IMG/VR virus record: IMGVR_UViG_3300047478_000167
Coordinates: 1-39,038 of that record
Reading direction: 5' to 3' (one strand)
DNA: 39,038 nucleotides
From: a virus
How positions within the stretch are numbered: position 1 is the first letter of the stretch; each line of letters opens with the position of its first letter. Made by a program: the position numbers and the translations under genes. Shown here one piece after another: positions 7,630 through 9,593 of the stretch. The notes below the pieces were generated by a model. That model saw only the letters and a program-made list of their open reading frames with translations. It was not told the DNA's origin and did not search any database.

Positions 7630-8088
7630 ATGAAAAGAGAAATATTATTCAGGGGAAAACGGATTGATAATAGCCAATGGATTGAAGGTGGTTTCTTTAA
7701 ACACTTAAATAGAACACTTTGCGCTATGGGTGATTGCGAGAAACCAGAAGATATTGACTATTTAATATTGAAATCTGGTTTTAGTGATTGGAATATGCCA
7801 AAACCGCTTGAGGCACATCCTGTTATCCCATCAACCGTAGGCCAATTCACCGGACTAACAGACAAGAACGGAGTTAAGATTTTTGAGGGTGATGTTTTAC
7901 AGCGTATTGATACGAAAAGCACCAAAATTGTACTTTGGAAAAAAGACTGTTTTGTTGCAAGGAATTTATTTGATACATGGTTAAATAAAATTGTTGTTGA
8001 TAGGGAACAGGATTGTAGTCTTTATTTTATGACAACATTTGACATTGAAGTAATCGGCAACATTCACGATAACCATGAAATTATATGA
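7630..8088 (+). CDS. YopX-family protein
   Basis: 152 residues from ATG 7630; the frame is open upstream but this start is preceded by the CTAAACACC leader seen before other genes. The N terminus MKREILFRGKRID and the segments VGQFTGLTDKNGVKIFEGDV and IEVIGNIHDN are hallmark YopX motifs. The family is common in phages and prophages of Firmicutes and Bacteroidota; its molecular function is unknown. It ends with an ATGA overlap into the next gene. Confidence 0.9.
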   Translation: MKREILFRGKRIDNSQWIEGGFFKHLNRTLCAMGDCEKPEDIDYLILKSGFSDWNMPKPLEAHPVIPSTVGQFTGLTDKNGVKIFEGDVLQRIDTKSTKIVLWKKDCFVARNLFDTWLNKIVVDREQDCSLYFMTTFDIEVIGNIHDNHEII

Positions 8089-8345
8089 GCGCACTAACCT
8101 ACGTAATCCTAACACTGATGGCCGTTTCGACCCTATCACTGGTAATCTACTCAGTCTGTATCACACGAATCAGACGGAAACACGCTAAGTCGATGCAGTA
8201 CTTTGACCCTATCAAACTTAATGTTGACGGTGAATGGGAGGAAGGCTACTACATTTATCAGATAGATTCAAATACGCATCGGGTAAATATAAACGGTACT
8301 GTGCATGATGTGAACTTTAAGGATATTGTAAAGGCTTGCAATTAA
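8085..8345 (+). CDS. Small membrane protein, unknown
   Basis: 86 residues with an N-terminal membrane helix (ALTYVILTLMAVSTLSLVIYSV), a basic stop-transfer stretch (RIRRKHAK) and a soluble tail (GEWEEGYYIYQIDS). Orientation would place the tail in the cytoplasm. Coupled to YopX by ATGA. Its TAA stop (8343-8345) lies within the left edge of the first attC-like element, just as cassette genes often end at the boundary of an attC site. Confidence 0.7.
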   Translation: MSALTYVILTLMAVSTLSLVIYSVCITRIRRKHAKSMQYFDPIKLNVDGEWEEGYYIYQIDSNTHRVNINGTVHDVNFKDIVKACN

Positions 8346-8435
8346 CGGCTGGCGGTATGGCTTGTAAGCATTGCGCCACAGTTTCAAGTTCCCGTAATAG
8401 CTTCGGGCTTATAAGCTATACCGCTTGTTATGTGC
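8341..8435. repeat. attC-like stem-loop element A
   Basis: Left arm 8352-8369 (GCGGTATGGCTTGTAAGC) pairs with right arm 8407-8424 (GCTTATAAGCTATACCGC) over 18 positions with two G-T pairs. Outside the arms, TTAAC (8342-8346) faces GTTAT (8427-8431), as R''/R' boxes face each other in integron attC sites. The loop holds GTTTCAAGTT (8381-8390), repeated at 9068-9077 in element C, and a small CCCG/CGGG hairpin. The right box GTTATGTGC (8427-8435) is the exact reverse complement of GCACATAAC at 8728-8736, closing the following gene. Confidence 0.5.
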
Positions 8436-8474
8436 TGGGCGGTTTATCAGCACGAAATTTAATTTGAAAACGAA

Positions 8475-8720
8475 ATGTTGCCAAAAGACAAAGCAAACGA
8501 ATTAGTAAACATAATGCTTGATAAATTATACGACAATGGTAGTTTATCATTCAAGCGTATTTTACACGCAAAAGCCGTTGAATGTGCGAAAGTATTAGCA
8601 GATGAAATATTGCATCAATACACCACATTAAACGCTGAATTGATAAACGGATTATATAGAAGTGAAAAGGTTGTCTTTTGGCAAGCTGTCAGAACGGAAC
8701 TTGATTATGTGCAGTCATAG
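8475..8720 (+). CDS. Small unknown protein in cassette-like unit 1
   Basis: 81 residues, helical: KDKANELVNIMLDKLYDN, then a second helix AKAVECAKVLADEIL and a C-terminal WQAVRTEL helix. It resembles the many short K-A-L-V helical proteins found in phages of this phylum, without known function. It is the only gene between GTTATGTGC (8427) and GCACATAAC (8728), the predicted ends of one cassette. Its leader (8439-8477) is 29/39 identical, without gaps, to the leader of the next gene (8758-8796). Confidence 0.65.
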   Translation: MLPKDKANELVNIMLDKLYDNGSLSFKRILHAKAVECAKVLADEILHQYTTLNAELINGLYRSEKVVFWQAVRTELDYVQS

Positions 8721-8727
8721 TATCCTT

Positions 8728-8761
8728 GCACATAACGTTCCGCAGCTATGCGTAGTTGCGG
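8728..8761. repeat. attC-like element B, short form
   Basis: Starts with GCACATAAC (8728-8736), complementary to the start of the same unit at 8427, followed by hairpin CCGCAGCTA (8740-8748), loop TGCG, TAGTTGCGG (8753-8761) with one G-T pair. It lacks the long arm pair and clear GTT box of elements A and C, so it looks reduced. TTATGTGC at 8705-8712, inside the preceding gene end, can also pair with GCACATAA. Confidence 0.4.
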
Positions 8762-8793
8762 TAAATTAACACGAAACTTAAATTAAAAGACAA

Positions 8794-9030
8794 ATGAATA
8801 CAGACAGAATTAAAGAGATACAAGAGGAAACTGCTTATCCAGAGAGCGTAAGTGTGCAACAAGCCTTACTGAAAGTTTGGAATGAAACCGAACAGAAGCA
8901 ATTACGCATAGCTGCTGTTATAAAATCGTTGCCCGATTCAGACGAAATTAGAATGAATGCACGAGAGCTTGATGAAAAAGACTTTGACCAATGGTGGTGG
9001 GAAACCGTTTATAAGGGCAATGTTTTATAA
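8794..9030 (+). CDS. Small unknown protein in cassette-like unit 2
   Basis: 78 residues. The N-terminal segment RIKEIQEETAYPESVSVQQA and the following LLKVWNETEQ are typical of a short protein seen repeatedly in phages and prophages of this phylum, of unknown function. The C terminus is acidic and Trp-rich (DFDQWWWETVY). The stop codon TAA at 9028-9030 is embedded in the ATAAC box that opens element C. The gene lies between elements B and C and shares its leader with the previous gene. Confidence 0.7.
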   Translation: MNTDRIKEIQEETAYPESVSVQQALLKVWNETEQKQLRIAAVIKSLPDSDEIRMNARELDEKDFDQWWWETVYKGNVL

Positions 9031-9126
9031 CGGTGGTGCAGCTATGAGCAGGTTTGCGTTGCATCACGTTTCAAGTTACTGAAAATCTGTCCGCAAACTT
9101 GCTTATAGGTGCGGTTATGCCCAGTG
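9027..9126. repeat. attC-like stem-loop element C
   Basis: Left arm 9038-9058 (starts GCAGCTATGAGC) pairs with right arm 9092-9112 (ends GCTTATAGGTGC) over 21 positions with one mismatch and two G-T pairs. Outer boxes ATAAC (9027-9031) and GTTAT (9114-9118) are exact complements. The loop contains GTTTCAAGTT (9068-9077), as in element A. The right box GTTATGCCCAGTG (9114-9126) matches the reverse complement of 9502-9514 at 12 of 13 positions, bracketing the next gene. Confidence 0.5.
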
Positions 9127-9159
9127 TTTTATTTTTAATCAATTTAATAACAACATATT

Positions 9160-9501
9160 ATGAAAGTAGCAAAAACAAATGACGAAGAAATTTCAAGGTT
9201 AAACACCTTATTAAATGAAGTTGAATGGCTCTCAAAAGAGTTTCGTTCAGGTAGTGATTTTTCTGATATAGATTGGGAAGATTACGAACAACTATCAAAA
9301 TTACCAAAAGACGATGCAGAAGAATTTTTGAAAGTATTATGCTACACAATTGCTGGTAATCATTTTCAGCGTATTCTTTTCAACTGCTCAACTCTTTTGG
9401 ATAATTGTGCTGACCCAAATTTAGACCACTTAGATTTTAATCCTGATATAAAAGCAGGCTTAGAATTACTCGAAAAGCAACGTGCCGAAGTTGGTTCTTA
9501 A
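9160..9501 (+). CDS. Small acidic protein in cassette-like unit 3
   Basis: 113 residues, strongly acidic, helical: DEEISRLNTLLNEVEWLSKE, an acidic linker (DFSDIDWEDYEQL), and KDDAEEFLKVLCYTIAGNHF. No signal peptide. AT-rich codon use (for example tta, aat, gaa) compared with the terminase region. Flanked by GTTATGCCCAGTG (9114-9126) and CATTGGGCATAAC (9502-9514), which start at the base after its stop. Acidic proteins of this size can be DNA mimics or antitoxins, but there is no specific evidence for either. Confidence 0.65.
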   Translation: MKVAKTNDEEISRLNTLLNEVEWLSKEFRSGSDFSDIDWEDYEQLSKLPKDDAEEFLKVLCYTIAGNHFQRILFNCSTLLDNCADPNLDHLDFNPDIKAGLELLEKQRAEVGS

Positions 9502-9548
9502 CATTGGGCATAACGAGTATATATACGCAATAGGTTGAAATGCCTATT
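9502..9548. repeat. attC-like element D, degenerate
   Basis: CATTGGGCATAAC (9502-9514) complements the start of the same unit at 9114-9126. It is followed by the palindrome GTATATATAC (9517-9526) and hairpin AATAGG (9529-9534), loop TTGAAATG, CCTATT (9543-9548). There is no long arm pair or terminal GTT box, so this looks like the broken end of the array. Confidence 0.35.
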
Positions 9549-9593
9549 AACGCTTCAAAGCAAAATAACCGCTAATCTAAATAAATAGACGCA

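Follow-up and report, generated by a model that had tools for sequence, protein, structure and literature searches.

Classical integrons, class 1 and chromosomal ones alike, hold arrays of small genes split by hairpin sites (attC), in which the R' and R'' boxes are complementary within each cassette, and a single attI end, from which the genes face away, lies by the gene for a tyrosine recombinase. The recombinase, IntI, has an additional domain as its defining feature (PMC9668308), the boxes read GTTRRRY and the canonical crossover is G^TT in gene orientation. IntegronFinder 2.0 recorded one complete integron in the Bacteroidetes group beyond Chlorobi/Ignavibacteria (PMC9024848). In spirochaete integrons, which have a true IntI, the integrase gene is reversed, an orientation unlike that of class 1 (PMC9668308). 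Among phages, Qi et al. (2023, PMC9892861) used canonical models, report 17 clusters of attC sites without an integrase (CALINs) in 10,705 phages, interpret the sites of Polaribacter phage P12002L as divergent in direction and describe the recombination of one of them by IntI1 in E. coli.

The DNA examined here is a 39,038-base virus record, the whole of which is called the window; it encodes a phage helicase-methyltransferase, a primase-helicase and a terminase. The initial annotation placed an array of integron-cassette-like units at 8341–9550; the array is real and more extensive than first described, and it ends at about 9527, in an attI-like sequence (Table 1). Complementarity between the box that starts a unit and the box that ends it had been claimed for two units. 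It was borne out for unit 1 (GTTATGTGC/GCACATAAC, 9/9) and unit 3 (GTTATGCCCAGTG/CATTGGGCATAAC, 12/13), and also holds for unit 2, which had been missed (GTTATAAAA at 8917–8925 with TTTTATAAC at 9023–9031, 9/9). Sites A and C have the attC-like anatomy ascribed to them, with AAC on the left and GTT on the right. Genes 1 and 2 are indeed separated by a site (B), and a complete rather than a short one: it belongs to the long-loop class (fold z −2.47), its 138-nt loop holds the start codon of gene 2, and the ORF of cassette 2 passes through its right arm (8898–8915) and R'. When folding of single-stranded DNA was compared with shuffles, the + strand gave z −2.49 for site A and −4.31 for site C. 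The − strand, whose folding the initial annotation had proposed as a check, was no better than shuffles (z −0.80 and −1.00, respectively). An Rfam search returned no attC match, only chance matches.

Table 1. Coordinates of the array and the features adjoining it in the window
Feature	Position	Strand	Basis or remark
Phage gene preceding the array	8085–8345	+	ORF list; TAA stop overlaps the outermost TTAAC box
Site A	8338–8435	+	Box GCAATTAAC at 8338–8346, AAC at 8344–8346; short-loop class
Site A stem	Arms 8352–8369 / 8407–8424; R' GTTATGTGC 8427–8435	+	Sequence
Cassette 1 gene, 81 aa	8475–8720	+	Function unknown; weak phrog_21441 match
R'' of cassette 1, GCACATAAC	8728–8736	+	Exact complement of own R' at 8427
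Site B	8734–8925	+	AAC 8734–8736, arms 8742–8759 / 8898–8915, R' GTTATAAAA 8917–8925
Cassette 2 gene, 78 aa	8794–9030	+	Start in site B loop, stop codon within R''
R'' of cassette 2, TTTTATAAC	9023–9031	+	DNA similarity to cassette 2 copies of other phages ends here
Site C	9029–9126	+	AAC 9029–9031, arms 9038–9058 / 9092–9112, R' GTTATGCCCAGTG 9114–9126
Cassette 3 gene, 113 aa	9160–9501	+	ORF list
R'' of cassette 3, CATTGGGCATAAC	9502–9514	+	12/13 with R' at 9114
attI-like sequence TAACGAGTATATATACG	9511–9527	+	Layout as TAACTAtTATATaTA, which in related phages precedes the recombinase gene by about 55 nt

The attI-like sequence of the window matches 9/11 consensus positions, which is good, not perfect, and the loose motif matches about 0.3% of other YAAC positions. 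The recombinase gene is absent downstream of it, and a scan of the window for the short recombinase described below found no match, in agreement with the lack of an integron integrase recorded initially. Like a phage CALIN, the window thus has a cluster of attC-like sites and no integrase; the sites are of a separate type. We infer that the window lost, or never had, a recombinase on this contig, and that the cassettes depend on a helper for movement or are left immobile; a co-infecting phage, a prophage or the host could supply the enzyme. In close relatives of the window an empty site would join ..CAATTAAC to GAGTATATATACG. A search of viral contigs for relatives of cassette 3 found none, and plasmids yielded nothing similar.

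Scans of viral contigs and genomes, as proposed in the initial annotation, revealed hundreds of sites of this design, both in phages of Bacteroidota (isolated lytic ones among them) and in host chromosomes. The class has the layout NNNNTAAC, about 5 nt, a stem of about 20 bp, a loop, about 1 nt and GTTANNN, and arrays of it occur in LR745206, a phage of 635 kb, in Polaribacter phages Danklef and P12002L and in many IMG/VR contigs. A stringent AAC-stem-GTT scan, with reversed sequence as the control, detected 205 sites in the phage DNA selected by pattern, 964 kb in all (0 in reversed sequence), 185 in 804 kb of phage DNA chosen by the recombinase alone (3 in reversed sequence) and 107 in 546 kb of host DNA (0 in reversed sequence); a chance origin of the sites is excluded. 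The scan sees only ungapped stems, present in 88 of 111 pattern-picked sites, and the remaining 23 are hence invisible to it. Many of the host sequences are metagenome bins; an array plus recombinase is present in a named isolate, Pedobacter glucosidilyticus DSM 23534.

The cassette rule, which played no part in finding the sites, was followed in both settings. The start and end boxes of a cassette agree at at least 6/7 positions in 129/184 neighbouring pairs in phages (random 3.7%) and in 38/50 in hosts (random 2.7%). Over 151 sites the R' box reads GTT, followed by A in 148 and then by T (89), G (58) or C (4), so that the departure from GTTRRRY first noticed in the window extends to the class. 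Loop lengths form two recurring classes, near 80 nt and 110–118 nt. One class of short sites combines a near-perfect stem with the conserved loop TCGTTTTAATG (L083 3280–4200; L243, L259, L271, L277, L413).

Comparison of phages, suggested initially as a search for exact unit swaps, showed that near-identical units are exchanged and end at the AAC box. Stretches of near-identical DNA shared by different contigs had 26 ends within 12 nt of AAC and one near GTT, with the other ends far from any detected site, and the cut at G-TT predicted by the initial annotation was not upheld. Three units (525, 820 and 1017 bp) recur with 100% identity although their surroundings differ, and the boundary ambiguity of exchanged units is about 3 nt. 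The attC upstream of the gene accompanied it in six cases versus one, while the downstream hairpin was at the random level. Cassette 2 of the window is also found in L087, L088, L090–L093 and Danklef, where similarity stops at 9029–9031 and is followed by unrelated DNA, and the hairpin upstream of it recurs behind three different boxes. Because exchange ends at AAC and the upstream hairpin is carried along, the unit is body-GTT-gene-AAC, and the crossover therefore lies at AAC rather than at G-TT. Classical polarity with a crossover at GTT was dropped in view of where units end, how the array joins attI and which attC, the upstream one, moves with the gene. Read in attachment-site polarity, the AAC end is the same junction as G^TT on the other strand. 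Some older similarities between phages stop at GTT, so hairpin bodies have been reshuffled too, and together with the one exchange end at GTT they indicate that there may be a second junction type. The protein of cassette 2 (8794–9030) is a mosaic with its join at the right arm and R' (L089, L095, L090–L093); in some phages the shared part is limited to the site-loop portion, residues 1 to about 37, and in others to residues about 36–78.

Phage arrays run into a conserved sequence, TAAC followed by TAtTATATaTA, and about 55 nt further on begins the gene for a tyrosine recombinase, about 267 aa long; in relatives the attI-like junction, TAAC joined to TATTATATATA, lies before the recombinase. 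The element precedes 64/80 phage recombinases and is rare elsewhere, with 84 motifs overall in 804 kb. In phage loci with at least two sites, the sites are upstream of the recombinase and on its strand, with one exception among the loci listed. In Danklef the gene that follows immediately on the array is a recombinase gene lacking its 5' part (L207 about 1500–1980, Danklef_1; L214, Danklef_5), and a segment of about 60 nt (AACGTGCGATTGTAAGG...) preceding it occurs also earlier in the same array. A search of megaphages for the recombinase found no match.

Host arrays lie on the 3' side of the recombinase, mostly ending 53–170 nt from its 3' end, and their cassette genes point away from attI (51/54; 28/28 beside the recombinase; 9 away and 2 toward in a second, recombinase-chosen set), as in classical integrons. 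Phage cassette genes point toward attI (159/163; versus hosts, Fisher 5e-41), and therefore gene direction in the phage branch is the reverse of that in hosts with respect to the attachment sites. The possibility that hosts are inverted like phages was discarded, as ORF orientation showed the opposite. The host form resembles spirochaete integrons in that recombinase and cassettes are codirectional, but in the phage form the genes are also inverted relative to the sites. One host genome has a phage-type recombinase and attI (TAACTATTATATATC; L508, about 7850–8083 in the + orientation of the recombinase), which is probably a prophage, and in L522 and L523 sites are also found 5' of the recombinase.

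The catalytic residues of the recombinase are all invariant, and the IntI-specific insert, looked for in 28 phage recombinases, was absent from 28/28. In a tree of 84 sequences the phage and host recombinases are sister clades that together form one clade (98/89) beside the separate clade of 21 IntI (100/100), apart from Bacteroidota Xer. TIGR02249 matched the recombinase below its cut-off and in two stretches; an early reading of this match as an integrase near the arrays was abandoned because the alignment and the tree show that the recombinase is not IntI. The best NCBIfam model is the XerA-like NF040815, slightly below cut-off, and the nearest solved folds are XerA (5hxy) and IntI4 (2a3v). 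It shares this likeness with XerA/XerH-type recombinases, but it accompanies cassette arrays and an attI-like site and falls outside the XerC/XerD clade. Host recombinases are frequently open frames of 350–550 aa, with extra N-terminal sequence missing from the phage forms. Strong matches to the recombinase were found in 94/297 sampled species genomes of the phylum. True IntI above the TIGR02249 cut-off was found in 84/297 sampled species genomes of the phylum as defined by GTDB, beyond what published surveys suggest; a plasmid search for further mobile IntI returned IntI1 alone.

The frequency of true IntI in the phylum is compatible with the view that these are ordinary IntI/attC cassettes in a phage, that is CALINs as in Qi et al. 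(2023), moved by a host IntI. They share the cassette rule and the hairpin plan, and P12002L, one of whose sites was recombined by IntI1 (PMC9892861), carries sites of the present kind. That paper likewise describes attC sites and DNA methyltransferase cassettes in lytic phages; a separate integrase clade, attI and inverted polarity are not described in the part of it used here. We consider this explanation very unlikely. Sites were present in 17/20 host regions picked by the short recombinase alone and in none of the other three, versus 0/20 true-IntI regions of the same phylum (Fisher 3e-8), a count that also removes the IntI-bearing genomes as owners of the sites. In Pedobacter G041 arrays occur together with the short recombinase in a genome that lacks IntI. 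Exchange ends at AAC and inverted genes are also unlike ordinary IntI cassettes. A cassette lineage with its own recombinase is therefore favoured, and the initial suggestion that the cassettes are mobilised by an unknown or host recombinase is supported by the cassette rule, the unit exchange, the attI-like end and the adjoining recombinase family.

Arms and leaders are alike among cassettes, and some similarities end inside the arms or at GTT, as would be expected if units were exchanged by homologous recombination between similar hairpin arms and not site-specifically. This is very improbable, as the exchanged units end at AAC beside unrelated flanks, and homologous recombination would create neither the complementarity of a cassette's own boxes nor the junction of the last box with an attI next to a recombinase gene.

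The sites also contribute to the genes. In long-loop sites of phages and hosts, the frame of the gene continues without a stop across the right arm and R' in 85/139 (the other frames in 20 and 26), and the first ATG is within the loop in 64/139, the listed examples being from phages; short-loop sites have no such excess of open frames. The start in the loop and the open frame mean that the recombination site encodes an N-terminal tail of these proteins. Phage methyltransferase genes start in the hairpin loop (L103 5396–6270, L104, L106, L125 and others), and their first residues come from the loop and right arm (e.g. MIDRITEQPFCQTRVMC). The 5' leader of the cassette 1 gene, GTTATGTGCTGGGCGGTTTATCAGCAC..AAATG (window 8427–8475), also precedes several unrelated genes of other phages (L083 3001, L084 3001, L145, L171, L194, L250, L256, L280). 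Where R' is changed to GTTACCTGC, the pairing segment of the leader is changed from AGCAC to AGTAGG, suggesting a second hairpin within the leader. Ten sampled cargo genes included two N6/N4 methyltransferases and one Mom protein, the others being of unknown function; the methyltransferase and Mom cargo probably serves escape from restriction.

Strand asymmetry in these mostly ungapped stems comes from G.T and C.A mispairs at fixed positions, which may set them apart from classical attC sites, where extrahelical bases give the strand choice; bulged stems would be missed by the scan. The G.T pairs are one-way (GT:TG 582:43 in phages, 224:7 in hosts; stem positions 11 and 14), and their polarity is tied to the attachment site in hosts and phages alike, despite the reversed transcription. 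The strand of that polarity folds better in 93% of 408 sites. Because the polarity is constant while transcription is reversed, a folded DNA strand is favoured over RNA, and the comparison points to a single-stranded DNA hairpin as the selected structure. An origin without recombination, as RNA hairpins (terminators, processing, translation control) or as the dispersed Bacteroidota repeat offered as an alternative in the initial annotation, would accommodate the G.T pairs as G.U, the start codons of the long-loop class and the possible second hairpin in the leader after R', but is extremely improbable, since the G.T orientation tracks attachment-site polarity and not transcription, start and end boxes match within the same unit, and whole units are swapped with sharp ends.

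We therefore put at roughly 85% the probability that the three cassettes form an array belonging to an integron lineage of Bacteroidota and their phages. Judged from sequence comparison, the system is integron-like in its working, yet not a canonical IntI integron: the recombinase lacks the IntI-specific insert and falls in a separate clade, the boxes are GTTANNN in place of GTTRRRY, and phage genes are inverted, often with a start codon inside the site. Each cassette would consist of attC body, R', gene and R'', and the AAC box at its end would be the complement of the GTT box at its start. The coding strand would fold into a hairpin, and the short tyrosine recombinase, the sister of IntI, would cut at or near AA^C. 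Circular cassettes would then recombine with other sites or be taken up at the attI-like end beside the recombinase gene. In phages, where the genes face attI, a leader comes with each cassette, and the hairpin often contains the start codon as well.

The lineage is apparently undescribed; in the open-access literature we found no account of recombinases of this line, of their attI or of phage cassettes with inverted genes. With less assurance than for the window itself, we think it probable that this is a second integron lineage, common in Bacteroidota, with a recombinase that is sister to IntI and without the IntI domain, and with a phage branch that has inverted genes and sites often giving the start codon and N-terminal tail, and that swaps counter-defence genes. 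The prevailing view has been that Bacteroidota have almost no integrons; here integron-type gene capture would be common in the phylum and its phages, lytic ones included. The system would offer a natural comparison for the evolution of the hairpin-recognition domain of IntI and of extrahelical bases, new recombinases and sites for genetic tools, and a route by which phages may move anti-restriction genes.
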